A DNA stretch of 64,000 nucleotides from Myxococcota bacterium (GTDB taxonomy: Bacteria > Myxococcota_C > UBA6777), in contig JAKLKB010000019.1 in the NCBI GenBank assembly GCA_023150835.1, positions 3,260-67,259 of the forward strand, in the 5' to 3' direction. Below, piece after piece: positions 5,081-52,290 of the stretch. Below the pieces are notes generated by a model. That model saw only the letters and a program-made list of their open reading frames with translations. It had not been told where the DNA came from and did not search any database. The position numbers and the translations under genes were made by a program. Within the stretch, counting starts at the first letter, position 1. Every line of letters starts with the position of its first letter.

Positions 5081-5112
5081 ACCGTTGGCCGACGCAGAAA
5101 GGTGGCTGAGCG

Positions 5113-19689: not shown

Positions 19690-19814
19690 GTTCGTTCGGC
19701 TCCCTTGGACGTGGGTGGGTTTCGAGGCCGCCCATACCTAGCATGGATTGGATTTGAGTGGCAACGTGGATGGTTGGGAGATTGGAGCGCACGGAGCGCG
19801 CAAGGAGTGGATGG

Positions 19815-22439
19815 ATGTGTCGACGTGGTTTGGGTGGTTGGGTGGTTTTGTTGTGCTTGGGTTGTCTGGGCTGGTTAGGGGGGGTGGCTTGTGAGCCGCC
19901 CGCGTGTCCGCAGCCTTGCGTGTCAGGCCAGACCTGTGTCGCAGGGAAGTGTGTGGGAGGCGAGACGGCGGTCGAAGAAACAGGCGATGGCTCGACCAAG
20001 GAAGACACGCCGAAGGAAGATACGGAAGGGATCCCCGAAACCAACGCGGATGGTGTGCCGCCGACGCTGTATCGCTGGAAAAAGGCAGAAAGCGGCGTGA
20101 CGGTGGATCTGTGGGGGGCGTCGATGGTGGACAAAGATCACGCATGGGTGGTGGGTGATCAAGGGACGATCTTGCATACGAAAAACGGCGGAGCGACGTG
20201 GGAGCGCCAAGGCTCGGGCGTTCAATCAGGGCTGCGCAGCGTGGCGTTTCTCAACACGAAACAGGGTTGGATCGTGGGGATGGCGGGGGTGATCTTGGCG
20301 ACACAAGACGGCGGAGTGACGTGGAAAGCGATGGCATCGCCGGTCAAAGACAACTTGTATCGGCTCTTTTTTCCCAAAGGGGATCAAGATTACGGTTTTG
20401 CGGTGGGAGCGAAGTTTGCGATCTTGCAGACGACGGATGGTGGGAAGAGTTGGCAGTCAGCGGCCAAGACGCTGGATACAGATATGAACGGGGTGTTCTT
20501 TTTTGATCGGCAGATCGGGATCTTTGGTGGGGACAATGGTTTGATCTTGACGACGATCGACGGTGCAAAGAACTTCACGACGGCGTCGACGAGTACCAAC
20601 GAGTATATCAACAGCATCTTTTTTCCGAGTACAGCGAAAGGTTGGGCGGTGGGGACAGGAGGGTTGTTTTTGGAAGGAGCGGAGCGTGGTTCGGGTTGGA
20701 GCAAGCGCGATCTGAAGACGACCAAAGAACTGTTTGACCTGTGCTTTTTGAGTCCGACACGAGGATGGATGGTGGGTGCGGATGGTTTGTTGTGGGGGAC
20801 ACGCGACGGGGCGCAAACATGGCTGCCCGAGACGACCGAGTCTGTACCGACCTTGCACTCGATTAGTGCGATCTCCGAGCAAGCAGGGGTGATCGTTGGG
20901 AAGCGTGGAACGATTATCGCGTTTTTGCCTGTTCAAGCGGAATGTACGCCGGGGGGGGAGCGCGATTGTTATTCAGGCCCCGAAGGGACGAAAGGTGTGG
21001 GGATCTGTAAGAGTGGCAAACAAACGTGCGAGAGCAACGGACAGTGGTCGGCTTGTAAAGGTGAGGTGACTCCCGCAGGAAAAGAAGTTTGTTTTAACAA
21101 CGTAGACGACAACTGCAACGGAAAGCCCGATGAACAGGACGGATGCCCCGTTTGTCAGGACAACAGCAAACAGGTTTGCTATACCGATGAAAACAACAAG
21201 CCCGGCCCAGAGAACACGCAAAACATCGGTCTTTGCTTGACGGGAGAACAAGTTTGCATCAACGGAAAATGGGGAGAGTGCGTGGGAGCGGTATTTCCAG
21301 CGCAAGAAGAGTGCAACGGAGAAGATGACGATTGCGACGGGCAAGTGGATGAAGCCAGCGATCTGACGTCACCGCCTGCTTGCGAAAAGAGTTTGGGCGT
21401 GTGCGCTGGGGCCAAACGGATCTGTGAAAAAGGCCAATGGAAAGCGTGCGAAGCGGCGCAGTATGGGGCGGAGTATCAAGAGAAAGAAGACAAGTGCGAC
21501 GGCAAAGACAACGATTGTGACGGGATTATTGATGCGGGTTGCCCGTGTACAACGGAAGGCGAAAAGCGAGCGTGTTATGGAGGGGACACAGCCACCAAAG
21601 GGGTTGGAGAGTGCAAAGACGGCGCGCAAACGTGTACGGGTGGGAAATGGAGTAGCTGTGCAGGCCAAGTGTTGCCGAAGATGGAGCAGTGCGAGACGCA
21701 AAAAGACGAAAACTGCAACGGTCAAGTCGACGAGCGCAGCCAAGCAGCGTTGGTGTGCGGAAGCCAGCGTTATGTGCAAGTGGCGGCATCGGCAGATTTT
21801 GCGATGGAAAAGGCGTTGACGATCGAGGGCTGGTTTTTGTTTTCTTCGCTCGGGCGGCGCGATCCAACGCAGACGTTGATCTCGCGTTCGGAACAAGGGG
21901 GATATTCGCTGTCGATCGCTTCGATGACGCGGCAGATCACATTTCGGATCTATCCGAAGGGAGGGACGGATTATATCACGCTGCCAGTGTCGTATTCGGG
22001 GCGGATCAGCTTGAACCGCTGGCACCATCTCGCCGCAACCTACGAGGGAACGGTGATGCGGCTGTGGATCGATGGCAAGAAAGCAGGGGAGAAAGCGGTG
22101 ACGACGGATATCGGTTATGGGCCATCGGTGCCGTTGTTGATCTGCGCGGAATCAGGGCCGAACGGTCCAGAGATGCGTGCGCCATCGTATCTGGTCGGCC
22201 AAGTTGCGCAGGTGCGGATCTCGAACCAAGCCGCGTACAGCGCGAACTTTACGCCGCCTTGCAATATGACCAAAGAGGCTTCGACGGTGGCGCTGTGGTT
22301 GTTTGATGAGGGGACAGGCGACGTGTGCAAGGATGAAGTGGGAAAGAACAATGCGACACGACGGGCCGCGTATTGGCGAGAGGCGGTGCGTTGTTCGGGG
22401 TTTGTGGCGGGTGGGTGTTTTCCGTCGGTGGCTCCGTAG
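19815..22439 (+). CDS. modular lipoprotein: YCF48-type propeller, MopE repeats, LamG domain
   Basis: 874 residues from the ATG at 19815, seven bases after AAGGAG; a longer opening to 19758 lacks a signal. The signal peptide ends in GVAC (Cys26). Residues about 75-375 hold seven YCF48/BNR-like repeats (for example HAWVVGDQGTILHTKNGGATW). Residues about 375-650 hold putative metal-binding MopE-type units (NGEDDDCDGQVDE, DGKDNDCDGIID, KDENCNGQVDE). Residues about 665-860 form a LamG/concanavalin-like domain (LTIEGWFLFSS, RWHHLAATYEG). All point to a surface or outer-membrane protein; ligand and function are unknown. It is divergent from kynA. Confidence 0.85.
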   Translation: MCRRGLGGWVVLLCLGCLGWLGGVACEPPACPQPCVSGQTCVAGKCVGGETAVEETGDGSTKEDTPKEDTEGIPETNADGVPPTLYRWKKAESGVTVDLWGASMVDKDHAWVVGDQGTILHTKNGGATWERQGSGVQSGLRSVAFLNTKQGWIVGMAGVILATQDGGVTWKAMASPVKDNLYRLFFPKGDQDYGFAVGAKFAILQTTDGGKSWQSAAKTLDTDMNGVFFFDRQIGIFGGDNGLILTTIDGAKNFTTASTSTNEYINSIFFPSTAKGWAVGTGGLFLEGAERGSGWSKRDLKTTKELFDLCFLSPTRGWMVGADGLLWGTRDGAQTWLPETTESVPTLHSISAISEQAGVIVGKRGTIIAFLPVQAECTPGGERDCYSGPEGTKGVGICKSGKQTCESNGQWSACKGEVTPAGKEVCFNNVDDNCNGKPDEQDGCPVCQDNSKQVCYTDENNKPGPENTQNIGLCLTGEQVCINGKWGECVGAVFPAQEECNGEDDDCDGQVDEASDLTSPPACEKSLGVCAGAKRICEKGQWKACEAAQYGAEYQEKEDKCDGKDNDCDGIIDAGCPCTTEGEKRACYGGDTATKGVGECKDGAQTCTGGKWSSCAGQVLPKMEQCETQKDENCNGQVDERSQAALVCGSQRYVQVAASADFAMEKALTIEGWFLFSSLGRRDPTQTLISRSEQGGYSLSIASMTRQITFRIYPKGGTDYITLPVSYSGRISLNRWHHLAATYEGTVMRLWIDGKKAGEKAVTTDIGYGPSVPLLICAESGPNGPEMRAPSYLVGQVAQVRISNQAAYSANFTPPCNMTKEASTVALWLFDEGTGDVCKDEVGKNNATRRAAYWREAVRCSGFVAGGCFPSVAP

Positions 22440-32872: not shown

Positions 32873-32946
32873 ACACGCATTGGACGCGTACGGTCAAGGA
32901 CAATCATTGCGGCGGGGCCTCCGCCTTTTTGCAGGATGGAACGGCT

Positions 32947-34671
32947 GTGCAAGACGGAAGAAAGCTGATCGCTTGGCTAGAACAGCAAGGCTATTTTGAA
33001 GACGCGCTCAAGGAGTGCGATATCTTGATTGCAAAAGATCCTGATGACACGGATCTTCGGGCTTTTCGAGCATCCTTGCTTGTGCGCTGTGGTCGCCCCG
33101 AGGAAGCGATCGCGTTGTACGGCGAGGTCGCGATGGAGTGGTCTGAAAAAGGACAGTATTTGCGGGCGATTAGCTGCTCGAAAGCGGTGGCGTTGTTGGA
33201 CTTTTCGGCTTATGAAAAACTGTCGCGTCGGTTGGCGACTTTTTACAACAAGCGCTACGCAACCCCCGGGGCAACCAATCAACCCTTGCCCTTCAGCGAG
33301 ATTACAGCCTCGATCCCTGTCTCTGTTCTCGGCTCCGAAGCACTGCTTGGCGATCAAGACAGCAGCGGTGAGATGCCGATTACATGGGTCGAACCGCCGC
33401 GTCCGTCCACATCGCAAGTGGATATGGACGCCCCCTCAAGCGACGCGCTCACCGCCCCTCCAAGCAGCGGTGAGGAACCGACCTTGTATTCGACCGTTCC
33501 AGAGCATTCCTCAGGGCCTCCAATCTCCTCGCCCTTTGAACCGATGAATAAACCTCCAAGCGCAGCCGCTGCTTCTTCGCATCCAACCCAAAAGAAGCGG
33601 CGAACAGGCGAGAACGAAAAGCAGCGAACAGGCGAGAACGAAAAACAGCGAACAGGCGAGAACGAAAAACAGCGAACAGGTGAGAACGAAAAACAGCGAA
33701 CAGGCGAGAACGAAAAACAGCGAACGGGTGGCTTTGAGAAACAGCGAACGGGTGGCTTTGAGAAACAGCGAACGGGTGGCTTTGAGAAACAGCAAACAGG
33801 CGAAGCGGATTCTTGGACAACGGACGCGGTGCGTCAAAAAGAAGCCTCGCGCAAAGAATCGCAAAAACTGCCCAGTCTGTTTAGCCGCCTTGATGCCGAT
33901 AGTACGGCGGCTTTGATGGATTATTTGTTTCCGGTCGAGGCCCCCAAAGGAAAAGTGCTGATGCAGCAAGGAGAATACGGAAACGAATTCTTCTTGATCA
34001 GCGAAGGGCGGGTGGTGCTGACGCGGCGTGTGGATGGCGAAGAAGAAGTCCTTGTGGAACTCGGACCCGGCCAATTCTTCGGTGAGATCGCGCTGCTTAC
34101 ACCGTTGCGACGTACCGCGACAGTCACTTGTCTCGAAGACTGCCAACTGTTGCGCTTGACCCGTGAAGATCTGCGCAATGTGGTTCAGTCCCATCCCAAT
34201 GTCGACACCGAACTACGGCGCTTTGTGTACCAACGGCTGATTCAAAACCTGTTGTTGACATCGCTACTGTTTTTTGCTCTTTCGACCGAGGATAGGGTGT
34301 CTTTTGTCGAATTCTTTTCTGTTCTCGAAGGCAAAGCAGGCGTTGTTTTGGTGCGCGAAGAGCAACCTTCTGATGCGCTGTATTTGATTGCGGGCGGAAC
34401 AGCGGAGCTTTTGAAACGCAAAGGATCGGAAGGAGAGGTCAGCGTTCAACACCTCGGGGTGGGGGACTTTTTTGGAGAGAGCGCGATCTTGGGCCGAGAC
34501 AGCGCGCTGTACAGCGCCCGTCTTGCTGAAGATTGCATCTTGCTCAAGCTGCGAGCAGACGGTGCAGCAAAGGTCCGTCCACGCTTCCCCAAAGCGATCG
34601 AGATCGTGCGCAATATCTCCGAACAACGGCGTCGAGAGATCCACGCCTTGTCTTCGATGTGGGCCATCTAG
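32947..34671 (+). CDS. TPR and tandem cyclic-nucleotide-binding domain protein
   Basis: 574 residues from a GTG at 32947; TTG at 32929 in the same frame is also possible, neither with a strong ribosome site. Residues 1-95 form TPR-like helices (DALKECDILIAKDPDD, EEAIALYGEVA). A Ser/Pro-rich region follows, then eight octapeptides (RTGENEKQ five times, RTGGFEKQ three times) at about 219-283. Two CNB-type beta barrels follow, at about 320-430 (QQGEYGNEFFLISEGRV, GPGQFFGEIALL) and 455-560 (EEQPSDALYLIAGGTAEL, GVGDFFGESAILG). No helix-turn-helix or catalytic domain is visible, so it is probably a scaffold or signalling protein, not a CRP-type regulator. Confidence 0.85.
   Translation: MQDGRKLIAWLEQQGYFEDALKECDILIAKDPDDTDLRAFRASLLVRCGRPEEAIALYGEVAMEWSEKGQYLRAISCSKAVALLDFSAYEKLSRRLATFYNKRYATPGATNQPLPFSEITASIPVSVLGSEALLGDQDSSGEMPITWVEPPRPSTSQVDMDAPSSDALTAPPSSGEEPTLYSTVPEHSSGPPISSPFEPMNKPPSAAAASSHPTQKKRRTGENEKQRTGENEKQRTGENEKQRTGENEKQRTGENEKQRTGGFEKQRTGGFEKQRTGGFEKQQTGEADSWTTDAVRQKEASRKESQKLPSLFSRLDADSTAALMDYLFPVEAPKGKVLMQQGEYGNEFFLISEGRVVLTRRVDGEEEVLVELGPGQFFGEIALLTPLRRTATVTCLEDCQLLRLTREDLRNVVQSHPNVDTELRRFVYQRLIQNLLLTSLLFFALSTEDRVSFVEFFSVLEGKAGVVLVREEQPSDALYLIAGGTAELLKRKGSEGEVSVQHLGVGDFFGESAILGRDSALYSARLAEDCILLKLRADGAAKVRPRFPKAIEIVRNISEQRRREIHALSSMWAI
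33601..33792 (+). repeat. 24-bp coding repeats (eight copies)
   Basis: Units of 24 bases starting CGAACAGGCGAGAACGAAAA give five RTGENEKQ octapeptides and, in a variant form starting CGAACGGGTGGCTTTGAGAA, three RTGGFEKQ octapeptides. Two repeat types with near-identical DNA within each type indicate recent expansion by slippage. Confidence 0.97.
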
Positions 34672-36947: not shown

Positions 36948-37043
36948 AGATACGACGGCGGCGAGGGCGGACACGCCAGAGATCGTCAAGCCGTCCAAGC
37001 AGAAAACAGGAGGATGTCAGATACGACGGCGGCGAGGGCGGAC
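36948..37043. repeat. 25-bp direct repeat pair
   Basis: AGATACGACGGCGGCGAGGG followed by CGGAC occurs at 36948-36972 and again at 37019-37043. The second copy encodes part of the Arg-rich end of the MYXO-CTERM tail on the minus strand. It may record a small duplication between the two genes. Confidence 0.9.
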
Positions 37044-40000
37044 GAGGAAGAAGAGCAAAGCAAAGAAGAAGAACAAGGCTGGTTCTGTGGGTGAGAGAGA
37101 AGTGCAGCTACACCCGGGGGATTGGTAGCGGGATTCTGCGGTGGGATCGTCGTTTTGGTTGCCTGTTTGTTTGTTGTCGTCTTCTTTGGCGACGGTGTCG
37201 GATGCTTGGGGGGTGTCTTGGGTGGGGTTGTCTTGGGCGGTGGGATCGTCGTTGTGGGAAGGGCCGTCTTGTTGGGGGTCGTTGTCTTGGGGCGAGGCGT
37301 CTGCGTTTGTTTCGGTGGAGATCTCGGTGGTTGCGCCATCTTGTGTGGACTCGTTGTTGTTTTCGTCCGAAGGCTCGGCGCTGGGTTCTTGTCCGTTGGG
37401 GAGGCAGACGGTTTTGTCGCCTTGGAGGATACAATGGCTGCCATCGGGGCAGGTGACAAGGAAACAAGCATCGACGCAAGTTCCGGCGACACAGCGTTTT
37501 CCTGTTGCGCAATTCGTGTTTTTGCAAGCGTCACCGATACAGACGCCATTTTCGCAGGTGAGTCCGGCGGGACATTCACCGCCGCTGCACTTGCGGCGGC
37601 ACTCTCCCGCGTTGCACACCAAACTCGGCGGGCAGAGGGGGTTTCCGTTGGTTTCGTTGTCGATCTGGCCGTCGCAGTTGTTGTCTTTGCCGTCGCAGAT
37701 CTCGTTGTTGGGTTTGGGGGCGTCGCAGTTTGTCCATTGGCCGTTGGTACAGGTCTCTTTGCCTTCGCCGCAGGCCGAGCTACAGGTGCGAGCGAGTCCG
37801 TTGTCGATCACGCCGTCGCAGTCGTCGTCTTTGCCGTTGCAGGTCTCGGATTCGGGAGAAGGGCCAGAGCAACCGCCCCATTTTCCGCCTTGACAGGTGG
37901 CGGTGCCTTGACCACAAGGGCCTTGGCAAGGGCGTGGTGTGAGTCCGTTGTCGATCTGGCCGTCGCAATCGTCGTCTTTGCCGTTGCAGTCTTCGGCTTG
38001 TGGTTTGGGGGCATCACAAAAGGCCCATTGACCGGCGATACAGCGTTCTTTTCCACTTCCGCAAGTGGTGGAACAAGCGCGTTCAGGGACGTTGTTGTCG
38101 ACGAGGCCGTCGCAATCGTCATCGGTGTTGTTGCATTGTTCGGGGGCGGGCTGACGGGCGCTACAGCTTTCCCACTTGCCAGCTTTGCAGATCTCAAAGC
38201 CCGTCCCACAAGCGTTGCTGCAAGATTGGGTGAGGTTTTCGTCGATCAATCCGTTGCAATCGTTGTCGATCCCATCGCAGATCTCGGGTGTAGGGGCTTT
38301 TCCAGCGACGGAACATTCAACGCCCGTTCCGTCGGACTTGCATACAAACGTCCCTGTTTCTTTGCAAGCGCCCATGCCCACAGAACAGGGCTGGCCCTTG
38401 GTTGGGAAGTCTTCGTCGACTTTGCCGTCGCAATCGTCGTCTTGTCCGTTGCAGATATCTTTGTCGCGGGGTGGGATATTGGCGGTGTGAAAGTTGTTGG
38501 TTTTGTCGCATTCGTTGCGGGTTTGTTTGCCGGAGCCGTCGTCGTCGGCGGCGGCGTAAGCGCGGTTGGGGAGTGTGGGGAGAGGGGTCACGGAGACGGT
38601 GAGGAAGATGCCTTGGCCGGGTTCGATGTCGCGGGTGGTGAGGACGGTGGCGAGTTTTTGTTTAAGGCCCGTGGGATCGCCTTGATAGATCGTGACGGGG
38701 AGTTGGGCGGGGATCTTTTTTGCACCTTGATTGAAGATCCAGACGCCCGCAAGGAGTTTGTTGGGAGCGCTATCGCAAGCGAACCGTAGATCTTTGAGGA
38801 TGAGATCTGCGGCTTGGAAAAGTCCCGATCCTTGGACGTTTTGGCGAAAGTTGTTCAGGCTCGGTAGCTTCCAGTTTTCAATTGGTTTTTTAGGAGGCTG
38901 TCCAAAACGGTGGCCGGGCGGGCAAAACGGATCGGTCGGGCCTGTGCAGATGTTGGTGACGTTGTAAGCGTGTTGGTTCCAGACGTTGCGGGTGTCGACC
39001 CAGTTGTCGAGGGTGTCACGAAAGACCCGCAGCCGTCGCATGGAGCCGTTGTTCGAACTAAAGACGATCTCGGCGCGACCATCGTTGTTGACGTCTACGA
39101 TCACGGGATATTCGAGCGTGGTGGCCGAGCTATTGGCGGTGGAATAAAGAACACTGCCTGTCGTGCCGTTGAAAACGCGCATATAGACTTCGTCGTTGTA
39201 GACGACTTCGGCCTTGCCATCGCCTTCAAAGTCAAAGACAGAAGAGCCTGTTTGGGCGGAAGAGTGGTCTTGGGTTTTGAAGGACCACAACAGCGTGAGT
39301 TTTTTGTTGGGGATATCGACGGAATAAACGACGTAGTAGTCACGCCCAGCCGAAGCGATATCGGGGTTTTTATCACCGTTAAAGTCGGCGACTGTCGGCG
39401 GACCACCGCCACCGCCCGGGATGGCGATACTGGCGATCAATGCGCCTGTTTGGCCATGATGAACGCGGATGGCTCCTCCGCTAACGACCACGACTTCGGG
39501 CTTTCCGTCTTTGTCAAAGTCTGCGACCGCAGGATATCCGTCCGAAGCACCGTTGCTCCACATCGTGCTGCAATCTTTACGAAAAGCCCGTGAACCCGTC
39601 ACGATCTCTTGGATGCCATCCCCATCAAGATCGGCGATCACCGAAACAGGCCGAACATCGGGAGAGCCGTTGCCCCCCGTTCCTTGGCAAAGAACCAAGC
39701 CATCGCTTCCGCGTACGACGGCGCTTCCGACGATCACTTCGACGTTTCCGTCCCCATCGAGATCGGCGATTGCAGGCCCCCCCCAACTCACCGTAAGAGG
39801 GACGACTTGGCCGTTGGCGTCATGGCTTACCCACTTGAATTTGCCCGTGTTGTCGAAGGCCAAGAGGCCACTATTCCACACACTTTTTCCAGCGTAGCGG
39901 GGGGCGACGATATCAGGTTTGCCGTCGTTGTCGATATCGCCGACCGCGATCGCGCCCAAACCGTTGACGCGGTAGGCTGGATCGCTGACGGTAAAGATCT

Positions 40001-40586
40001 CTTGGCCGTTGTCACCGCGCAGCGCACGAACCACGCCTTCTTCAGCGTAAGAACCGCCGCTGACGTAGCTGGTAAAGATCACAGAGGGCATATCTTTTTC
40101 GTCGATCTTTCCGTCGTTGTTGGAGTCTTGGAGCGCCATGACGACAGGCGTCATCATCACGTTTGCAAAGGTCGGAAGGATCGAGCTTCCCGCCCACTCC
40201 CAAAGCGGAGAGGGGGAAAATTGGCCGATGGGTGGGCGATAGGTGCATTGTGCGTTGGTGGGGATCTGGGGAAAGCATCGTTTGAGTTCGAGGTTGCAGT
40301 AATTTCCCGCTGCGCAGTCGGCCTGTTGTTGGCAAGCAGGGCCTTGGTTGGTGCAAGCCCCTTGGTAGCAGAACTGTTGGTTTGCACAACAAGAAGTCCC
40401 GCATTGTTGGGCGATGAGGCATTGTGCGGTGGCAGAGCTTGGGAGAAGCCACAAGCCCCACACCACACAGACCGCGAAGCCAAGGGAGGCGGCGTGGGAG
40501 CGGTGGAATAGAGCGGAAAGAAGCGGCTTGAAGAGGCCGTCCCTCAGCAAAGGAGAAGCACAAGAGCAAGAGTGTTTTTGAGCCAT
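37017..40586 (-). CDS. giant MYXO-CTERM surface protein: FG-GAP propeller plus MopE repeats
   Basis: 1189 residues from the ATG at 40586 with AGGTGG upstream. An N-terminal signal-anchor-like region ends near SSATAQ. After a Cys-rich segment, residues about 120-520 form an FG-GAP/VCBS propeller with calcium-loop motifs (DSNNDGKIDE, DIDNDGKPDI, DLDGDGNVEV, DVNNDGRAEI). A CARDB-like stretch at about 580-690 precedes MopE-type units (NGKDDDCDGQIDN, DGKDNNCDGQIDN) at about 700-960 and EGF-like cysteines. A Asn/Asp/Gln/Thr-rich linker leads to the C-terminal GCSC, a hydrophobic helix and RPRRRR, a MYXO-CTERM sorting tail. Such tails are processed by an intramembrane myxosortase and lead to lipid-type surface anchoring. 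Confidence 0.88.
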   Translation of the reverse strand: MAQKHSCSCASPLLRDGLFKPLLSALFHRSHAASLGFAVCVVWGLWLLPSSATAQCLIAQQCGTSCCANQQFCYQGACTNQGPACQQQADCAAGNYCNLELKRCFPQIPTNAQCTYRPPIGQFSPSPLWEWAGSSILPTFANVMMTPVVMALQDSNNDGKIDEKDMPSVIFTSYVSGGSYAEEGVVRALRGDNGQEIFTVSDPAYRVNGLGAIAVGDIDNDGKPDIVAPRYAGKSVWNSGLLAFDNTGKFKWVSHDANGQVVPLTVSWGGPAIADLDGDGNVEVIVGSAVVRGSDGLVLCQGTGGNGSPDVRPVSVIADLDGDGIQEIVTGSRAFRKDCSTMWSNGASDGYPAVADFDKDGKPEVVVVSGGAIRVHHGQTGALIASIAIPGGGGGPPTVADFNGDKNPDIASAGRDYYVVYSVDIPNKKLTLLWSFKTQDHSSAQTGSSVFDFEGDGKAEVVYNDEVYMRVFNGTTGSVLYSTANSSATTLEYPVIVDVNNDGRAEIVFSSNNGSMRRLRVFRDTLDNWVDTRNVWNQHAYNVTNICTGPTDPFCPPGHRFGQPPKKPIENWKLPSLNNFRQNVQGSGLFQAADLILKDLRFACDSAPNKLLAGVWIFNQGAKKIPAQLPVTIYQGDPTGLKQKLATVLTTRDIEPGQGIFLTVSVTPLPTLPNRAYAAADDDGSGKQTRNECDKTNNFHTANIPPRDKDICNGQDDDCDGKVDEDFPTKGQPCSVGMGACKETGTFVCKSDGTGVECSVAGKAPTPEICDGIDNDCNGLIDENLTQSCSNACGTGFEICKAGKWESCSARQPAPEQCNNTDDDCDGLVDNNVPERACSTTCGSGKERCIAGQWAFCDAPKPQAEDCNGKDDDCDGQIDNGLTPRPCQGPCGQGTATCQGGKWGGCSGPSPESETCNGKDDDCDGVIDNGLARTCSSACGEGKETCTNGQWTNCDAPKPNNEICDGKDNNCDGQIDNETNGNPLCPPSLVCNAGECRRKCSGGECPAGLTCENGVCIGDACKNTNCATGKRCVAGTCVDACFLVTCPDGSHCILQGDKTVCLPNGQEPSAEPSDENNNESTQDGATTEISTETNADASPQDNDPQQDGPSHNDDPTAQDNPTQDTPQASDTVAKEDDNKQTGNQNDDPTAESRYQSPGCSCTSLSPTEPALFFFFALLFFLVRPRRRRI

Positions 40587-40867
40587 GATGCCACCTAAAA
40601 GCAATTAAGGGGGAGTGGTACGATACCCAAGTGATGTACACATAAAGAAGAGTGCGTATGCGCCCGACTATAGGGCAGCCACAGGGATCTGCCCCTACCT
40701 CTTTATGATCACACAACGGGCGGATTTCGTACCACACCAAACAACAGGAAGATCTGCGCACTTCGCACATCAAGTATCGAGAGGATCGAGCGTTTGGTTG
40801 TGAGCGGGGGAAACGTCGAACAAGCAGAGATGGTGGAGAGATGGAGAGGTTTGGAGAAGACGGGGGG
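40587..40867. other. intergenic region between the two MYXO-CTERM genes
   Basis: About 280 bases containing MITE copy C (40615-40735) and otherwise no recognised gene or structure. Confidence 0.6.
40615..40735 (+). mobile_element. MITE-like palindromic element, copy C
   Basis: Begins GTGGTACGA and ends TCGTACCAC, an exact 9-bp terminal inverted repeat that extends imperfectly inward. The interior TAGGGCAGCCACAGGGATCT and GCCCCTACCTC matches the family; the left arm has diverged from the other copies. Confidence 0.85.
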
Positions 40868-43800
40868 TTAGGCGACGGGGCGACGGCGGCGTGCAAAAGC
40901 GATGAGCAAGAGGAAAAGACCGAAGAGAAGGGCTGCTTCGCTGGATGCGACGCTTGTACAAGCACAGCCCGGGCTTTGGTACCGCCCACCTGTGTTGTCT
41001 TGGTCTTTTGTATTTCCTGTTTGGGTGCCGCCTGTTTCTTTTTGTCCGCCGTCTGTGGTGTTGTCCTGCTCGGTGTTGGTGTTGTTCTCGGTGTTGGTCG
41101 GAAATTCGGTGTTGTTTTCGGCGTTTGTGTTTTCGGCGTTTGTGTTTTCGGTGTTTGTGTTTTCGGTGTTTGTGTTTTCTGTGCTGGGATTTTCGGGTGT
41201 GGTGGCTTTGTGGCACTGTGCGTTTCCATCAAGGACGACGCAGGAAGCGCCTGAGGGGCATTGGATGCCGTGACAAGGGTCGTGGTCACAGACGCCCCCG
41301 TAGCAAGTGCGTCCTGTGGGGCATTGGACACCCACACAGGGATCACCGACACATTTTCCAGCGATACATGTTTGGCCTTGGCTGCATTGGACGCCATCGC
41401 AGGGGCCTGTTTGTTTGGGATCGTCTTCGCACTTGCCGTCAACGCAGCGTTGTTTGGCGGAGCATTGGACATCCGTGCAACTGTCGACGCACTTTCCTTC
41501 GCGACAGAATTGGCTTGTGCTGCATTTGACGCCGCTGCATGGGTCGGAGACGCATTGCTTGTTGACGCAGCGCTGTCCGTTTGGACAGCCTTGGGTATAA
41601 CAGCTTTGTTCTTCGCACTTTCCGGCTTTACAGAGGGAGCCGTCGGGGCAGGTGACAAAGAAGCAAGCATCGATACATTTTCCAGCGACGCAGCGTTTGT
41701 CGGGATCACAGGTCATGCTTTTGCAGGGATCGCCGATGCAGATACCATTTTCGCAGGTAAGTCCGGCGGGGCATTCGCCCTTGTTGCACTTTTGGCGGCA
41801 TTGTCCGTCGCTACAGACCAACCCAGAGGGGCAGAGGGGGTTTCCGCTGGTTTCGTTGTCGATCTGACCATCGCAGTTGTTGTCCTTGCCGTCGCAGATC
41901 TCGTTGCTGGGTTTGGGGGCGCTGCAATTTTCCCATTGGCCGTTTTTGCAGATCTCTTTGCCTTCGCCGCAGGCCGAGCTACAGGTGCGGGTGATGCCGT
42001 TGTCGATCACACCGTCGCAATCGTCGTCTTTGCCGTTGCAGATCTCGGTTTCGGGAGAAGGGCCAGAGCAACCGCCCCATTTTCCGCCTTGACAGGTAGC
42101 GGTGCCTTTTCCACAAGGGCCTTGGCAGGGGCGTGGTGTGAGTCCGTTGTCGATCTGGCCGTCGCAGTCGTCGTCTTTGCCGTTGCAGTCTTCGGCTTGT
42201 GGTTTGGGGGCATCACAAAAGGCCCATTGACCGGCAACACAGCGTTCTTTTCCACTGCCGCAAGCGGTGGAACAAGCGCGTTCGGGGACGTTGTTGTCGA
42301 CTTGACCATCGCAGTTGTCGTCGATGTTGTTGCATTGTTCGGGAGAAGGTTGGCGGGCGCTACAGCTTTCCCACTTGCCATTTTTGCAAACTTCAAAGCC
42401 TGCGCCACAAGCGCTACTACAAGCTTGGGTGAGGTTTTCGTCGATCAATCCGTTGCAATCGTTGTCGATCCCGTCGCAGATCTCGGGTGTTGGGGGCTTG
42501 GCGGCTGCGGCACATTGGGTTCCGTTACCATCGGCCTGACAGACCCACGTTCCTGTGTTTTTACAAGCGCCAGCACCGACTTCGCACGATTGTCCGAGGG
42601 TAAGGAAGAAGTCTGCGTAGCTGAGTGTTGCTGTTTGAAGGACTGGACTATCGCGACTGTCCGAAGTTTCGAGTAAGAATTCGATCTCGACAAAGCGGTT
42701 GGGAGTGATGCCGAGGGGCTGTCCTTTTCCGGTGTAAAGCCCCCATGCAGCGGTCGCAAGAGCAGCTTGGGTCAGCGCACTACGCGCACGCACTTTGATG
42801 GTTTTTTGGGGGCTGGTATTTGAATCGGTCCACGTCACGGAGTTGAAGTGAGACTTGCATTGCGAGTCAAAGACTTGGCGGATGGTACCCGAAGAAGGAG
42901 CCACGATCGCAAACAGCGTAAAGCCCGTCATATCCGAGTAAGTGTAGGGGTTGGATTGTACTGGAGAAGAGCAAGCACAAGCACACGCACCCGGGACGAA
43001 ACAAAAGCAAGGCTTGGTTCCACCAACGTCGCAGATCGGATAGGCCCCGACTTTGGCACCGTTTGAGGTGTTGAGTTTGTAGGCGAGACCTTCGCTGTAA
43101 GAGTTGGCCCATGTAAAACCTTTGGAGTCGACGGCGATCCCGATGGTATGGAGTCCAACGTCTGTGTAGTTGGTGGTCGTGCCAGCAGCGGCGTTGATAA
43201 ACGAGACGAGGCGGGTATTGGCACCGGCAGCATCGTTTGAACAAGCTACCCACACGTTGCCGTTTCCGTCGATGGCGACGCCACGTCCCATTCCGCCGAT
43301 CGGGTAATCTTGGCGAGCGCCTGTTTGTGCGTTGAATTTGTACAAGACGCGATTGCCGTAAGAAGCGGCCCAGACGTTGCCGTTTCTGTCGGCGGCGATG
43401 CCATAAACACTCGGAGCGGAGTATTCGCCCGTCACGGTGCCGGTCGTCGAGTCGATCCGAACCACAGTTCCACGGCATCGCGCAGACACCCAGATATTGT
43501 TGAAGGAGTCTGTGGCGAGTCCGTAGGTACAGATGCGTGGGTCAAGGACGCGTCGTTTGATCTGATAGCTGGTTCCATCGATCTGTACGACAGAATAGTT
43601 GCTTCCGCTGTAGGCTCCCCAACCCCCCGCCCAGATATCGCCGTTCTTGTCGACGGTCACACCCCGAGGACCGGGAGCGACGTTGTGCGAGACGATAAAC
43701 TTTCCTTCGGCGGTGACCGCTGCTACATAGTTGGACGATCGCAAGCCGACCCACACATTTCCGCGTGAGTCGACCGTTGTCCGCGAAGGGCTTCCACCGA

Positions 43801-44122
43801 TGTTGTTTTGTTTGAAGTCATAAGTCCAAAGGATGGCACCTGTGCGCGTGTCCATCTTGACGATGGTGTTGAGTCCTGAGTTGGGCAGGTAGATAAAAGG
43901 GGTTTCGTTGTACTGTTGTTTGGCTGGATCGTAAAAGATCTGCGCAGCCCCGGGGGTTTTGTTGGTGTCGACGTTGGTTGCAGAACCGGCCTTCCAATCG
44001 GCTTGTGTGTTCCATGTCTTGGTTTTGGGGTTGGTTTGTTGCGCGAACGCTTCAGACCATGACCAAAGCGCACACGCGATCATCCCTAACAATAGGGATC
44101 GATGGATGCTTTGGATGTTCAT
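40868..44122 (-). CDS. giant MYXO-CTERM surface protein: NHL/Vgb-like propeller plus MopE repeats
   Basis: 1084 residues, ATG six bases after AGGAGG. Signal peptide ends SEAFAQ. Residues about 60-370 form a beta propeller of the NHL/virginiamycin-lyase type (VDSRGNVWVGL, VDKNGDIWAGG, ADRNGNVWAAS, IDGNGNVWVAC). Residues about 520-790 are MopE-type units nearly identical to those of the neighbour at 37017-40586, followed by six or more EGF-like CxxGQxCxxGKC units. A long TENTN/AENTN linker leads to GCAC, a hydrophobic helix and ARRRR, the MYXO-CTERM tail. Probably surface-anchored; ligand unknown. Confidence 0.88.
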   Translation of the reverse strand: MNIQSIHRSLLLGMIACALWSWSEAFAQQTNPKTKTWNTQADWKAGSATNVDTNKTPGAAQIFYDPAKQQYNETPFIYLPNSGLNTIVKMDTRTGAILWTYDFKQNNIGGSPSRTTVDSRGNVWVGLRSSNYVAAVTAEGKFIVSHNVAPGPRGVTVDKNGDIWAGGWGAYSGSNYSVVQIDGTSYQIKRRVLDPRICTYGLATDSFNNIWVSARCRGTVVRIDSTTGTVTGEYSAPSVYGIAADRNGNVWAASYGNRVLYKFNAQTGARQDYPIGGMGRGVAIDGNGNVWVACSNDAAGANTRLVSFINAAAGTTTNYTDVGLHTIGIAVDSKGFTWANSYSEGLAYKLNTSNGAKVGAYPICDVGGTKPCFCFVPGACACACSSPVQSNPYTYSDMTGFTLFAIVAPSSGTIRQVFDSQCKSHFNSVTWTDSNTSPQKTIKVRARSALTQAALATAAWGLYTGKGQPLGITPNRFVEIEFLLETSDSRDSPVLQTATLSYADFFLTLGQSCEVGAGACKNTGTWVCQADGNGTQCAAAAKPPTPEICDGIDNDCNGLIDENLTQACSSACGAGFEVCKNGKWESCSARQPSPEQCNNIDDNCDGQVDNNVPERACSTACGSGKERCVAGQWAFCDAPKPQAEDCNGKDDDCDGQIDNGLTPRPCQGPCGKGTATCQGGKWGGCSGPSPETEICNGKDDDCDGVIDNGITRTCSSACGEGKEICKNGQWENCSAPKPSNEICDGKDNNCDGQIDNETSGNPLCPSGLVCSDGQCRQKCNKGECPAGLTCENGICIGDPCKSMTCDPDKRCVAGKCIDACFFVTCPDGSLCKAGKCEEQSCYTQGCPNGQRCVNKQCVSDPCSGVKCSTSQFCREGKCVDSCTDVQCSAKQRCVDGKCEDDPKQTGPCDGVQCSQGQTCIAGKCVGDPCVGVQCPTGRTCYGGVCDHDPCHGIQCPSGASCVVLDGNAQCHKATTPENPSTENTNTENTNTENTNAENTNAENNTEFPTNTENNTNTEQDNTTDGGQKETGGTQTGNTKDQDNTGGRYQSPGCACTSVASSEAALLFGLFLLLIAFARRRRPVA

Positions 44123-46344: not shown

Positions 46345-48171
46345 GTGATGTTGTGGTGTCGGGCAGTCGTGCGTGGGATCGGGATCGGATGGTGTGGTTG
46401 GTTGATGATGCTGTGGTCGTGCCAAGCGCCACAAGAACCGGGCTGTGGGGATGGAAAGACGCTGTGTTCAGCGCGATGCGTGGATCTTGCGAGTGATGTG
46501 GGCCATTGTGGGGCGTGTGGGAAAGCGTGCGGCGCAACCGAGCGTTGTGTAAAAAGCCGATGTGTCGGGCTTTGCGATGGAAAACAAGTGCGTTGTGGCG
46601 AGGCTTGTGTGGATGTGCAAGCGACACGTGCGCATTGTGGGGCGTGTGGGAAAGCGTGCGGTGCAACAGAAGCTTGTGTGGAAGGGCGTTGTGTGTCTTC
46701 GTGCGGGTCGTTGGGGAAAGTCGCGTGCAGTGAGACGTGTGCGGATCTACAGACGGATGTTGCGCATTGTGGTGTGTGTGGGAAGGCTTGTGATGTGACG
46801 GAACGATGCGTGTCTGGGGTGTGTTCGTGTGCTTCAGGAGAAGGCCGATGTGCGGGGCGTTGTGTCGATCTGCGAGCCTCACGAGAACATTGTGGGGCGT
46901 GCGGTGTGGCTTGTGCGGATGGTCAGTCCTGTGCGAGCGGAGTGTGCGTTGCAGTATGCCCTGAAGCGACGCCGTTGTTGTGTTTGGGCGGATGTATCGA
47001 TGTCACGCGAGATTCCCGTCATTGCGGGGGATGTGGGAAGGCGTGTGCGCTGGATCAAGAATGTGTCGGGGGTCAGTGCCTTTGTGCAGAGGGGCTGATG
47101 CGTTGTGGGGATCGTTGTGTGGATGTGATGGCGAATGGTGCGCATTGTGGGGCGTGTGGTTTGGCCTGCGAAGGGGGGCAGGTTTGTTCGGCGGGGGCGT
47201 GTGTGGCTTCGTGTCCTGCGGCGACAGCGACGGTTTGTTTGGGAGGTTGTGCGGATACGCAAAACAACTCATTGCATTGCGGTGCGTGTGGGAAAGGGTG
47301 TACGTGGGGGCAGTATTGTGAAAAGGGAGCGTGTCGTTGTCCCGAAGGACAGGGCTTTTGCGATGGGGCGTGTGTGGATCTGAAGGTGGATCGGCTGCAT
47401 TGTGGGGCGTGCGGGAAGGCTTGCGCGGGGGGGCAGCTTTGCGATGAGGGCGCGTGCGTTGCGAACTGTGCGGCCTCCAAAAAGGCGTGTTATGGGGGTT
47501 GTGTGGACGTATCAAACAATCCGCGTCATTGCGGGGGATGTGGTGTGGTTTGTCGCGCAGGGACGGGCTGTGTCAAAGGGCAGTGTCAGTGCGCGGCAGG
47601 TCAAGTGCGTTGTGGTCGGTCATGTGTGGAAGTGGCGGCAGATCCGTTGAATTGTGGGCGTTGTGGTCTGGCTTGTGGGATGGGCGAGCGTTGCGTGGAG
47701 GGGCGTTGTGAAGTGGGTTGCAGTCCTTCGTATCCAGATCGCTGCGGAGATCGTTGTGTGGATCGCAAGCGCGATAACGCGCATTGTGGGGCGTGTGGCG
47801 TGGCCTGCCCGCAAGGGCAGCTTTGCGTGGAAGGCAAGTGCGCGTTGAACTGCCCTGCTGGACAGAGTCCGTGTGATGGGATCTGTGCGGATCTGCAAAC
47901 AGACACGCTGCATTGTGGTGTGTGTGGGAAGGCTTGTGCCTCGTACGAGCGTTGTGTCGCGGGAGTGTGTGCTTGCGAAGAAGGCGTGGGACGGGCGTGT
48001 TATACGGGTCCAGCGGGGACGGAAGGAAGAGGCGTCTGCAAGGGCGGCGTCTCGCATTGCAAACAAGGCCAGTGGTCGGCGTGTGTGGGCGAAGTGTTGC
48101 CCTCTGCGGAGATCCCGCAAGATCGGTTGGACAATAACTGCGATGGCCAAGTCGACGAAGTCGTGCCGTAA
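46345..48171 (+). CDS. Stig1-repeat lipoprotein with MopE-type tail
   Basis: 608 residues from the GTG at 46345 (ATG at 46348 equally possible). The signal ends LWSC, a lipobox. Twelve units of the form CxxxCVDLxxDxxHCGACGxxCxxGxxCxxGxC fill residues about 30-545; this is the pattern of the plant stigma protein Stig1 repeat, common in Myxococcota exported proteins. The last 60 residues contain a single MopE-type unit (DRLDNNCDGQVDE). The same architecture opens the next gene. Presumably a rigid disulfide-rich surface stalk; no enzyme domain is present. Confidence 0.85.
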   Translation: MMLWCRAVVRGIGIGWCGWLMMLWSCQAPQEPGCGDGKTLCSARCVDLASDVGHCGACGKACGATERCVKSRCVGLCDGKQVRCGEACVDVQATRAHCGACGKACGATEACVEGRCVSSCGSLGKVACSETCADLQTDVAHCGVCGKACDVTERCVSGVCSCASGEGRCAGRCVDLRASREHCGACGVACADGQSCASGVCVAVCPEATPLLCLGGCIDVTRDSRHCGGCGKACALDQECVGGQCLCAEGLMRCGDRCVDVMANGAHCGACGLACEGGQVCSAGACVASCPAATATVCLGGCADTQNNSLHCGACGKGCTWGQYCEKGACRCPEGQGFCDGACVDLKVDRLHCGACGKACAGGQLCDEGACVANCAASKKACYGGCVDVSNNPRHCGGCGVVCRAGTGCVKGQCQCAAGQVRCGRSCVEVAADPLNCGRCGLACGMGERCVEGRCEVGCSPSYPDRCGDRCVDRKRDNAHCGACGVACPQGQLCVEGKCALNCPAGQSPCDGICADLQTDTLHCGVCGKACASYERCVAGVCACEEGVGRACYTGPAGTEGRGVCKGGVSHCKQGQWSACVGEVLPSAEIPQDRLDNNCDGQVDEVVP

Positions 48172-48209
48172 GAAGGGGGAGTCGTGATGAGTCGGATATT
48201 TGGAAAGAA

Positions 48210-48280
48210 GCGAGTGTTTGGGATATTCGGAGATAGGCGAGCGTTTGGGATATTCGGAGATAGGCGAGCGTCTGGGATGG
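48210..48280. repeat. 27-bp tandem repeat, about 2.6 copies
   Basis: The unit GCGAGYGTTTGGGATATTCG followed by GAGATAG occurs at 48210 and 48237, with a partial third from 48264. Noncoding. Confidence 0.9.
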
Positions 48281-48327
48281 TGGGGATGCGACATCGCAAC
48301 TCCATCTTGTCCGATGGACGGGTGCGG

Positions 48328-48438
48328 GTCGATACGCGAGGCCATGAGAGCGTCGATCAGGTATTTGTGAAAGAGCGGGCAAGGCAACCGGTCGATACGC
48401 GAGGCCATGAGAGCGTCGATACGCGAGGCCATGAGATG
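48328..48438. repeat. 24-bp repeat, three copies
   Basis: GTCGATACGCGAGGCCATGA followed by GAGC occurs at 48328, 48391 and 48415; the last two are adjacent. A 39-base stretch separates the first from the second. Confidence 0.93.
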
Positions 48439-48528
48439 TTTGGGATGCGAGCCGATGGGGGCGAAAGCGTTTGGAATGAGCTTTCGTGTCGAGCCATCGC
48501 CAAAAGACAGCAGGCAAAGGGTCAAAAG

Positions 48529-51500
48529 ATGCAGCAGCGAATCGGTGTATGGGGCTTTTGGCGTGGCGTGATGGTGTTGTTGTGGGGGATGTGGGGAGTG
48601 GCCTGTCAGCCTCCCCAGCCCTCTTTGTTGTGTGAAACGGGAAAAGCCCGTTGTGGCGAGGCTTGTGTAGACGTCACGCAAGATCCGAAGCATTGTGGGG
48701 TGTGTGGGGCGGTGTGCCGTTCGGAGGAGCGCTGTGACAAGGGCTTGTGTGTGTTGCGTTGCGCGGCTGGGACGCAAGATTGCGCAGGGAATTGTGTGGA
48801 TATCTTGGCAAGCGAAAAGCATTGTGGCGCGTGCGCAAAAGCCTGTGCAACGGGCGAGCGTTGTTTTTTGGGTCGATGTGTTTCAGCTTGTCCGCCCAAT
48901 CTCCCCGATCTTTGCGAGGGGACGTGCGTGGACAAACGATCGGACCGCAAGCATTGTGGGGCGTGTGGTGAGATCTGTGCGGTGGGCCGAGTCTGCCAAG
49001 AAGGCGGATGCCGCTGTCCTATCGGGCAGTTCTTGTGTGGGAGTACTTGTGTCGATCCGATGACCAGTACGCAACACTGCGGAGATTGCAAGCGCCCTTG
49101 TGCAGAGGGCCAGATCTGTGCAAGCGGAACGTGCGTTCCTTCGTGTCCATCGGCAACACCGACGACGTGCTTTGGGGGATGTGTTGATACGCAAAGCCAC
49201 CGCTTGCATTGTGGGGGATGCGGTCGGGTTTGTTTGGCTGGACAAAGCTGCTCTGCGGGGAAGTGTTTGTGCGCCGAAGATATCACGGAGTGCGGAGATC
49301 GTTGTGTCGATCTGACCTCGGATTATGCGCACTGTGGGGCGTGTGGGGCGGCTTGTGCGGGAGGTCAGTTGTGTGCTTTCGGCGGTTGTGTGACGTCATG
49401 TCCTGCGGCAACACCCACCGCTTGTTTCGGCGGATGCGTCGACACACAAAGCAATCGATTGCATTGCGGAGCCTGCGGTACAGCCTGCGGAGCAGGGCAA
49501 TCTTGTATCCAAGGCAAGTGTGTGTGCCCTCCCAATCAAAAGCTTTGTGATGGTGTTTGCGTCGATCCTCGCGCCAACTTCCAACATTGCGGGACGTGTA
49601 TGCAGATCTGCGCGATGGGTGAGGTGTGTGGTGACGCGAAGTGCCAGATCCAATGCCCTGCGGCGACGGCGACGATCTGCTTTGGTGGTTGTGTCGATCT
49701 GCAAAGTGATACGTTGCATTGTGGCGGATGTGGCAAGCGTTGCGGCTTTGGAACGGCGTGTGAAAAAGGCCAGTGCGTTTGTGCTGTGGGGTTTGCGCTG
49801 TGTGGAGGGCGTTGTCAAGACCTTCAAAACGCACGTGCGCACTGTGGGGCGTGTGGCAAGGCGTGTGGGCCAACCGAGTCTTGCGTCAAAGGGGCGTGTG
49901 AGCCTGTGTGTTTGCGTGAAGCCCCGACGCGCTGTGGTGCGTTGTGCGTCGACACAAAGCAAGATGCCCGTCATTGCGGAAGCTGCGACAAAGCCTGTGC
50001 GCAAGGCGAGCGTTGCCGAGATGGTCAGTGCGTTCCCGAATGCCCTGTGGGGCAGACTCTTTGCGCGGGACAATGCTTCGATCTGCAACGTTCTTTGCAG
50101 CACTGCGGGACGTGCGGAAATGCTTGCGCGGCAGGGTCGGTGTGTAAAGCGGGGCGGTGCGATTGTGTGGATGGCGCTGTGCGCTCTTGCTATGAGGCTC
50201 CCGCCGCCACCAAGGGCGTGGGGCCTTGTGTCGCAGGTGAACAACGCTGTACAGCGGGTGTTTGGGGCCCTTGCACAGGGCAGGTATTGCCGAGTATCGA
50301 GATCAAGGACGGTGTGGACAATGATTGCGATGGGATGGTCGATGAGTCCGTACAAGTTCAACTTTTTGCGGGAAATTCGCTGCTGAAAAATGGTGGATTG
50401 CTGGAGGCGCGCTTTCATCAACCCGCACAGATCGTCTCGGATAGTGCGGGAAATCTGTATCTTGCAGATACCGCCAACCACATGATCCGAAAGATCGATC
50501 CACAAGGCAACGTGACAACCTTCGCAGGGACGGGTGTTCCAGCATTCAAAGACGGGACCGCTCTCCAAGCCACCTTCCAGCACCCCGAAGATCTCGCCTT
50601 TGACAGCAAAGGAAACTTGTACATCGCAGACACAGGCAACCACGCCATCCGCATGATCGATCTACAAGGCAACGTCAAGACGATCGCAGGTGCCGGAAAG
50701 TCGGGATTTCAAGATGGATCTGGTGGACAAGCGCTGTTCTTTTCTCCGCGTGGGATCGCGTTCGATAAAAATGGGACGCTTTTTGTTGCAGATACGGGCA
50801 ACCACGCGATCCGCAAAGTCGATCCACAAGGCCAAGTTAGCCTGATCGCAGGAAATGGCGTCGCTGGATTTAGTGATGGTACGGGCAAGATGGCTCAATT
50901 CGACGAACCCACCGATCTGGTCATCGACTCCGCAAACAACCTGTACGTCGCCGATTCGCAGAACCATCGCATCCGAAAGGTCGATGACAAGGGCGTCGTC
51001 ACCACCTTTGCAGGGGCGGGCCTTGCAGACTTTCTTGATGGAAAAGCTCAACAAGCGCGCTTTAAGGCTCCGCGTGGTCTGCTCTTGGACGGGGCTGGAA
51101 ACCTGTACGTCGCCGATGCCTTTAACCATCGTATCCGCAAGATCGACGCTCAAGGCAACGTCTCCACTCTTGCAGGGACGGGAAATGCAGGGTTTAAGGA
51201 CGACACAGGCTTGAATGCGCAGCTCTATCGGCCTTCTGGACTGGCGCTCGATAACAAAGGCGACTTGATGATCGTCGACACAGAAAACAAGCGTGTTCGC
51301 AAACTGTCGCTGAATACGGGGATTGTCACCACGTTGACGGGCGATGATCCGCGTGGTTTTGTCGATGGTTCGGTCGGGCAAGCCAAGTTCAATCGCGTTT
51401 CCGCTGTCACCACCGATCTCACCAACGGAGATGTGTTTGTGGCCGACAGCGAGAATCATCGCATCCGAAATGTCGATCCCAAGGGCCTGACCACCACGCT

Positions 51501-52290
51501 GTCTGGAACGGGCCAAGCGGGTTATTTGGACGGTGATGCGGCGACGGCTCGTTTTCAATCGCCGCGTGGCTTGGTGTTTTCGCACTCTTCTCGGATGCTT
51601 TACGTTGCCGACACGCGAAACCATCGCATCCGCATCGTCGATCTCCAAGGAAAGGTGACGACCCTCGCAGGAGACGGAACAGCGGGCTTGCGTGATGGTG
51701 CGGCGATGCAAGCCAACTTTCGTGAGCCTCAAGGTCTTGCCCTCGATGAAGCCGCCAACCTCTTGTACGTAGCAGACACAGGCAACCACGTGATCCGCTT
51801 GATTGATCTCGCGGCAGGGCAAGTCAAAACCTACGCAGGAGACGGCACGTTGGGCTTTGTCGATGCAGACGCAACCAAGGCGCGTTTTGCCGCTCCTCAA
51901 GGTATCGCGTGGCAACAAGGGGTGGGGTTGCTTGTGGCGGATACGCAGAATGTGCGGATTCGGCTGGTGGATACCAAGCAGCAAGTTCGAACTGTCGCAG
52001 GAGCCGGCAAAGTCGCACGCACAGACGGCGAGGCGTTACGAGCCAACTTTCTCGAACCGATCGGCTTGTTGGTGGGGCGCGACAAACGCCTGTATATCAC
52101 CGATCAAACAAGCATCCGATGGTTGGAAAAGGGGCGCGTTCAAACCTTTGTGGGGGCGAGCTATGCAAGCTATCTCGACGGCGATATCTCTGTGGCTTCG
52201 TTTGGACAGATCTGGGGTCTGGTGCAACGCTACGACGGTGCCTTGGTTGCGGCAGATCAGGGATACCACCATCTGCGCTTGATCCAGTGA
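48529..52290 (+). CDS. Stig1-repeat lipoprotein with twelve NHL repeats
   Basis: 1253 residues from the ATG at 48529 with AAAGGG upstream; this start gives a proper signal peptide ending GVAC, while a start at 48184 would not. Twelve Stig1-type units (HCGACGxxC) at about 35-540, then one MopE-type unit (DGVDNDCDGMVDE) at about 590-603, then twelve NHL-type blades from about 605 to the end (GNLYVADAFNHRIRKIDAQG and variants). The first half parallels the whole preceding protein. NHL propellers bind proteins, glycans or nucleic acids; the partner is unknown. Probably a surface adhesin or sensor. Confidence 0.88.
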   Translation: MQQRIGVWGFWRGVMVLLWGMWGVACQPPQPSLLCETGKARCGEACVDVTQDPKHCGVCGAVCRSEERCDKGLCVLRCAAGTQDCAGNCVDILASEKHCGACAKACATGERCFLGRCVSACPPNLPDLCEGTCVDKRSDRKHCGACGEICAVGRVCQEGGCRCPIGQFLCGSTCVDPMTSTQHCGDCKRPCAEGQICASGTCVPSCPSATPTTCFGGCVDTQSHRLHCGGCGRVCLAGQSCSAGKCLCAEDITECGDRCVDLTSDYAHCGACGAACAGGQLCAFGGCVTSCPAATPTACFGGCVDTQSNRLHCGACGTACGAGQSCIQGKCVCPPNQKLCDGVCVDPRANFQHCGTCMQICAMGEVCGDAKCQIQCPAATATICFGGCVDLQSDTLHCGGCGKRCGFGTACEKGQCVCAVGFALCGGRCQDLQNARAHCGACGKACGPTESCVKGACEPVCLREAPTRCGALCVDTKQDARHCGSCDKACAQGERCRDGQCVPECPVGQTLCAGQCFDLQRSLQHCGTCGNACAAGSVCKAGRCDCVDGAVRSCYEAPAATKGVGPCVAGEQRCTAGVWGPCTGQVLPSIEIKDGVDNDCDGMVDESVQVQLFAGNSLLKNGGLLEARFHQPAQIVSDSAGNLYLADTANHMIRKIDPQGNVTTFAGTGVPAFKDGTALQATFQHPEDLAFDSKGNLYIADTGNHAIRMIDLQGNVKTIAGAGKSGFQDGSGGQALFFSPRGIAFDKNGTLFVADTGNHAIRKVDPQGQVSLIAGNGVAGFSDGTGKMAQFDEPTDLVIDSANNLYVADSQNHRIRKVDDKGVVTTFAGAGLADFLDGKAQQARFKAPRGLLLDGAGNLYVADAFNHRIRKIDAQGNVSTLAGTGNAGFKDDTGLNAQLYRPSGLALDNKGDLMIVDTENKRVRKLSLNTGIVTTLTGDDPRGFVDGSVGQAKFNRVSAVTTDLTNGDVFVADSENHRIRNVDPKGLTTTLSGTGQAGYLDGDAATARFQSPRGLVFSHSSRMLYVADTRNHRIRIVDLQGKVTTLAGDGTAGLRDGAAMQANFREPQGLALDEAANLLYVADTGNHVIRLIDLAAGQVKTYAGDGTLGFVDADATKARFAAPQGIAWQQGVGLLVADTQNVRIRLVDTKQQVRTVAGAGKVARTDGEALRANFLEPIGLLVGRDKRLYITDQTSIRWLEKGRVQTFVGASYASYLDGDISVASFGQIWGLVQRYDGALVAADQGYHHLRLIQ

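Follow-up and report, generated by a model that had tools for sequence, protein, structure and literature searches.

Much of what is known about the shuffling of modular adhesins has been learned from pathogens and from variable heads. In Vibrio cholerae, the modular proteins Bap1 and RbmC possess a single propeller and differ in their environment-facing domains, and the Bap1-type propeller has been reported to bind matrix polysaccharide, not the cell surface (PMC10102183). In M. xanthus, the sorting enzyme MrtX cleaves MYXO-CTERM tails of proteins that are displayed on the cell surface (PMC11980579). MopE of Methylococcus capsulatus, which bears the short Asp/Asn/Cys motif that names Pfam family PF11617, has a copper site composed of two histidines and a kynurenine (PMC3423442). 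Finally, genes of outer-membrane proteins undergo short-term concerted evolution, in which gene conversion renders paralogs more similar to each other than to their orthologs (PMC6053082 and references there).

Modular adhesins, conversion between surface paralogs and anchoring by myxosortases are each known; what is new in the pair of genes described here, A and B, is their combination and the clean mosaic that they display. The pair is located in a stretch of 64,000 nucleotides from a Myxococcota bacterium (assembly GCA_023150835.1, contig JAKLKB010000019.1), called the window below, and was compared across five genomes of the phylum (G000, the window's own, to G004). As in concerted evolution, the co-genomic paralogs A and B are more alike than orthologs; the difference is that only the five-repeat core of a stalk has been homogenised, and this under non-homologous heads.

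Anatomy of the two neighbouring proteins

Genes A (37017..40604, starting with TTG at 40604 or ATG at 40586) and B (40868..44122) are both found on the minus strand, B (44122-40868) followed by A (40604-37017) after a gap of 263 bp. They encode predicted surface proteins of 1195 and 1084 aa, respectively, for which the term 'giant', used in the earlier note, is generous. MopE repeats (PF11617) form six stretches in A and five in B (63.1 and 61.4 bits, gathering cut-off 27), while the remaining Pfam matches comprise FG-GAP repeats in A and the Vgb, Mal s 1 and SBBP propeller families in B. The observation that had drawn attention to the locus, neighbouring genes with a common MopE block and different propellers, is therefore borne out: the heads are non-homologous and the MopE block is common to both.

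From its N-terminus, protein A comprises a putative export signal region with a basic start, a hydrophobic run and AQ/C (40422..40586), a propeller (38829..40223), a second head domain that is conserved in orthologs and is beta-rich in the model's secondary structure (38469..38822), an extra MopE unit with a junction (38292..38471), a core of five MopE units (aa 772-991, 37632..38291), a Cys-rich stalk part that retains an older likeness to B (37428..37631, 72% aa) and a C-terminal tail (37020..37118). The extra unit and junction lack an equivalent in B as far as aa 732 and are diverged from B beyond it, and their closest relatives are the stalks of other paralogs, not B. Protein B is composed of a propeller (43034..43885), a second head domain (42617..42961) that relatives match separately, at about aa 388-502, and that is conserved in B-type heads, a core of five MopE units (aa 545-764, 41831..42490), Cys-rich repeats past the MopE units (41213..41830) and a tail (40871..40975); the extra Cys-rich repeats span about 200 aa, and A has part of these only. 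All these features lie on the minus strand.

The head of A is an eight-bladed FG-GAP propeller (PF13517, 1e-28) of the same type as in Bap1, both by sequence (phmmer 7.6e-43 to Bap1 of V. cholerae, PDB 6mlt) and by predicted fold. Its AlphaFold2 model, based on 25 sequences, has a mean pLDDT of 90.9, superimposes on Bap1 with Z 45.9 (rmsd 2.2 over 426 residues, 30% identity; the next fold reaches Z 28.7), and matches Bap1-type propellers in Foldseek with 1.9e-26. Despite sharing this propeller, A is not classed as a Bap1/RbmC adhesin, because it lacks the inserted beta-prism, with 38 residues between the propeller halves compared to about 195 in Bap1; it further differs in the possession of a MopE stalk and a surface-anchor tail. 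Its head probably holds matrix polysaccharide. The Bap1-type head occurs widely and with many different partners: it has been found inside open frames of about 2800-3900 residues in Marinobacter and Motiliproteus, and with other C-terminal ends in Bacteroidales (L155, L158, L161, L164).

The head of B matches designed Pizza6 propellers (phmmer 9.1e-17) and streptogramin B lyase (1.7e-07). It was also considered as a genuine Vgb (virginiamycin B) lyase, and this assignment was rejected, as the Vgb_lyase score of 31.5 bits falls below the curated cut-off of 50; it is a Vgb/NHL-type propeller instead, and B would likely present another ligand-binding propeller. A further propeller type accompanies MopE in the window, in the product of 19758-22436 (+), which combines a propeller of YCF48/BNR type with two MopE motifs and a laminin-G-like domain. 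Another gene of the window, 32929-34671 (+), has a cyclic-nucleotide-binding look and contains a run of near-identical short 'KQRTGENE' repeats.

The stalk sequence has no match among solved structures, and AlphaFold2 modelling of the two stalks of the window (pLDDT 40.5, pTM 0.18) was too poor for conclusions, also as to a rod shape. As the stalk is rich in Cys and in acidic residues, it is probably metal-stabilised. Copper binding was discarded as its function, since it rested on the Pfam name MopE only, and the copper-site residues of MopE lie outside the PF11617 motif; the name is no evidence for copper in A or B.

The MYXO-CTERM tail proposed for both proteins holds fully for B, which possesses the Cys motif, a transmembrane stretch and an Arg-rich end and scores 26.3 bits against TIGR03901 (cut-off 20), whereas the tail of A stays below the cut-off at 18.1 bits and shows the same layout of Cys motif, hydrophobic stretch and Arg tail by eye. 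In G000, 30 MYXO-CTERM tails exceed the cut-off. MrtX, considered as the sorting enzyme, was found over its cut-off in none of the five genomes, and the myxosortase MrtP (NF040674) was found instead at G000:C16 (268 bits, cut-off 250). The MrtP gene (L239:2730-3836) lies directly upstream of 4246-7818, which encodes a protein of 1190 aa with many Cys-rich repeats and a MYXO-CTERM-like tail. The locus thus resembles the described MYXO-CTERM/myxosortase systems in the C-terminal Cys motif, hydrophobic segment and Arg tail and in the presence of MrtP, and differs from them in the sub-threshold tail of A and in its host, which belongs to a phylum-level group represented here by the five genomes compared. 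A and B are predicted to be exported and surface-anchored via a myxosortase.

Borders of the shared block

The blocks of A and B align over 933 nt without gaps and with 85.6% identity, and a comparison of the two genes revealed no long nucleotide similarity outside them; A aa 733-1059 is aligned to B without gaps. Borders were searched for in the third codon positions of A aa 733-1060, as the best central segment by LRT and shuffling. The change-point segment corresponds to 37632-38291 in A and 41831-42490 in B, exactly five MopE units, in almost exact agreement with the earlier placement at about 37600-38300 and 41790-42490. The blocks had been called nearly identical; they are strongly alike, but only at about 85% in nucleotides and 90% in amino acids of the core. 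Third-position identity amounts to 85% in the core and 48% in the adjoining shared sequence, a contrast equalled in 0 of 300 shuffles. The earlier note had named uniform divergence without sharp borders as the pattern opposed to its claim; what we found is a rise from 0.48 to 0.85 and a return (LRT 47.9), and the middle is indeed more alike than the flanks.

The same step is seen in codons that encode the same amino acid in A and B, which are identical in 169 of 194 cases in the core (87%), in 8 of 23 on its left (35%) and in 30 of 47 on its right (64%), with Fisher p 5.6e-8 for borders chosen from the same data. The sliding-window check, carried out codon-wise, revealed synonymous divergence that is low in the middle of the block (60-codon minimum pS 0.10, permutation p 0.002) and near saturation at its ends. 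For comparison, control pairs of orthologous stalks exhibit third-position identities over the whole cassette of 0.81-0.87 at the same-genus level and 0.43-0.51 at the family level, and a significant step is absent from four of five of them (2/3 same-genus, 2/2 family-level), with a weaker step (p 0.005) in the remaining same-genus pair. The whole-block dS between A and B is 0.54, compared to 0.21-0.34 for same-genus orthologous stalks, and by this measure the block as a whole somewhat predates the divergence between the window's species and the relative in its genus. Because the dS of the whole block exceeds that of the species split while a stretch of 60 codons has a pS of 0.10, at least two layers are probably present: a stalk that the genes have had in common for longer, and a core copied more recently. 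The break points adjoin conserved MopE motifs, where paralogs are most alike.

Two signs of ectopic gene conversion are found at this locus, namely sharp borders in synonymous divergence and a conflict between the trees of tract and flank (stalk tree against head tree, see below). The most serious rival is a single partial duplication, in which one copying event placed the entire stalk next to the other head and selection caused the uneven divergence later. It would account for the ungapped alignment of A aa 733-1059 to B and for the Cys-rich part of each being closest to that of the other; it predicts, however, uniform synonymous divergence, at odds with the codon identity of 87% in the core against 35% and 64% in the flanks, and two of the three same-genus and both family-level control pairs lack a significant step. 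We regard it as improbable, and a first copying event followed by later gene conversion fits better than one event.

Another pair of neighbours in the window, 46345-48171 (+) and 48172-52287 (+), served as a control. Their products have in common a Cys-rich block with 12 and 11 Stig1 (PF04885) stretches and a MopE motif, and only the second (48172-52287) carries an NHL propeller, at its C-terminus. As the two are 50% identical in amino acids, without long DNA identity, adjacency and a common repeat block alone do not yield the pattern of A and B.

Separate histories of heads and stalks

The core belongs to a larger conserved array, about 326 aa long, in which five MopE units with a spacing of 48/49 are joined to Cys-rich repeats. 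The search for further genes with this block brought the number that carry it, A and B included, to at least 17 in the five genomes. In 65 of 68 cases, a unit corresponds to the unit at the same position in other genes; the cassette has therefore been copied as a whole, and the idea that repeats are homogenised inside a single gene was rejected. The same or a closely related stalk is present under vWA heads in several genes and under an unassigned head in one. A and B share the insertions NVPERACST and NETxGNPL; among the other 15 cassettes, the former occurs in none and the latter is complete in none. Nearly 50 contigs of G000 contain PF11617 motifs, and MopE repeats are common in ten genomes reached via the head search, mostly labelled Myxococcota, in which only one match covers most of the core in register (47%, residues 42-289). 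Two contigs of G003, C163 and C194, score identically in the search, contain the same frame of 1550 codons and are likely a duplicate in the assembly. In G000, L141 (C70:52000-59135) is a partial open frame of 2378 residues with 12 MopE units, ASH/HYDIN-like Ig domains and, close to its start, a weak match to integrin-beta vWA.

The heads of A and B have been conserved independently of these stalks. The A head is 61% identical to its ortholog in G004 and 53% to that in G003, which carry two MopE units and none, respectively. A comparable C-terminal MopE stalk was found in 0 of 61 more distant relatives of the A head; one of these loci has four MopE motifs that lie on the N-terminal side of the head or in its initial portion, and another has a MopE motif after the head, at a contig end. 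The B head is 49-56% identical to the heads of G002, G003 and G004, all three with MopE stalks, and only 34-39% identical to its nearest paralog within G000; it is grouped with the G003 head in the head tree (support 97/95), and its union with the closest G000 paralog was rejected (p 1.2e-7).

In the stalk tree, by contrast with the head tree, A and B are sisters (100/100), joined next by C220 of the same genus (96/96). Forcing the B stalk together with the stalks of its head orthologs was rejected (AU p 0.0099). A wider clade of A, B, C220 and the B orthologs was not (AU p 0.177), and for this reason the stalk of B may be vertically inherited and only that of A foreign. The G003 protein of type B (C87, a contig-end fragment) has a stalk closest to that of the co-genomic vWA-type protein C59 (64%, as opposed to 57% and 55% to the stalks of its orthologs); as far as the sequence of such a fragment can tell, this is likely a second case of stalk replacement. 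Since conserved heads with orthologs across genera thus stand on stalks that are absent, short, long or replaced, it is the stalk that moves or is overwritten. The proposal of exchangeable heads is supported and can be extended: one stalk does occur under several heads, and what is exchanged is not only the heads, as the stalk itself moves.

The time of the event is not closely bracketed, as the comparison covered five genomes of the phylum and A and B were not found in the same-genus genome, which is 86% complete. In G001 the flanking-gene match (93%) stops at residue 152, so that the absence of A and B there may be real or apparent. In G003 and G004, the best matches of the flanking genes lie on other contigs than the orthologs of A and B, so no conserved neighbourhood was found and synteny gives no date for their adjacency.

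These trees bear on a second rival, the tandem duplication of a complete gene with subsequent replacement of one head. It could explain why A and B are adjacent, lie on the same strand and have the same order of parts, and why their linkers and tails are weakly alike (38%), but in other genera the two heads have orthologs of their own that lie on different contigs, the DNA likeness is confined to the MopE block, and the outer stalk predates the core; we consider this course of events very improbable. An assembly artefact that placed the reads of one stalk in both genes is scarcely credible even in a fragmented assembly of 239 contigs, in which repeats may cause assemblers to fail, for the collapse of a repeat would leave an identity close to 100%, while this block is at 85.6%, its longest exact run is 68 nt, the differences are scattered throughout and both ORFs are intact.

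Probable conversion of the stalk and its implications

The gene conversion or domain shuffling of a stalk suggested by the earlier note is supported by the step in identity, the tree conflict and the vWA domain as a third head type; the finding is real, and it can be made more precise in that conversion concerns the stalk. We consider it highly probable that A and B once shared a related stalk and that ectopic gene conversion later overwrote its five-unit core, more likely from B into A. According to this explanation, the five-unit MopE cassette would be an old module of surface proteins with different heads, A and B would have already possessed a related stalk in this lineage, and conversion between the neighbours would then have replaced the core. 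The direction from B into A is favoured by parsimony, because B-type heads carry MopE stalks wherever they are orthologous and A-type heads are mostly devoid of them; the two-unit protein of type A in G004 could also be a shortened full stalk.

Both proteins would be exported and anchored by a myxosortase, with a head, a MopE/Cys-rich stalk and a C-terminal anchor. The Bap1-type propeller of A would bind matrix polysaccharide and so hold the cell to it, and the disulphide-rich, probably metal-binding and presumably rigid stalk would keep the heads off the outer membrane. Conversion of the core between neighbours would leave the heads intact and keep the stalks interchangeable.

A bolder extension, which we offer tentatively and with a modest chance of being right, is that the MopE cassette serves as a common exchange adaptor, with conserved motifs as recurrent crossover points, by which the phylum reassorts propeller and vWA heads and stalks of different length. 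If this is true, these bacteria would have an open adhesin repertoire of dozens of anchored proteins, in which the stalk, not the head, undergoes concerted evolution.

In A, a propeller of the Bap1 type, whose known role is matrix binding, is placed on a stalk predicted to be anchored to the cell. In the pair as a whole, conserved heads stand on a stalk that has been overwritten between proteins without homology, and the borders of the tract can be located to the vicinity of single repeats. If such events are recurrent, repeat stalks would be a substrate for new surface proteins in bacteria with large genomes that have been little sampled.
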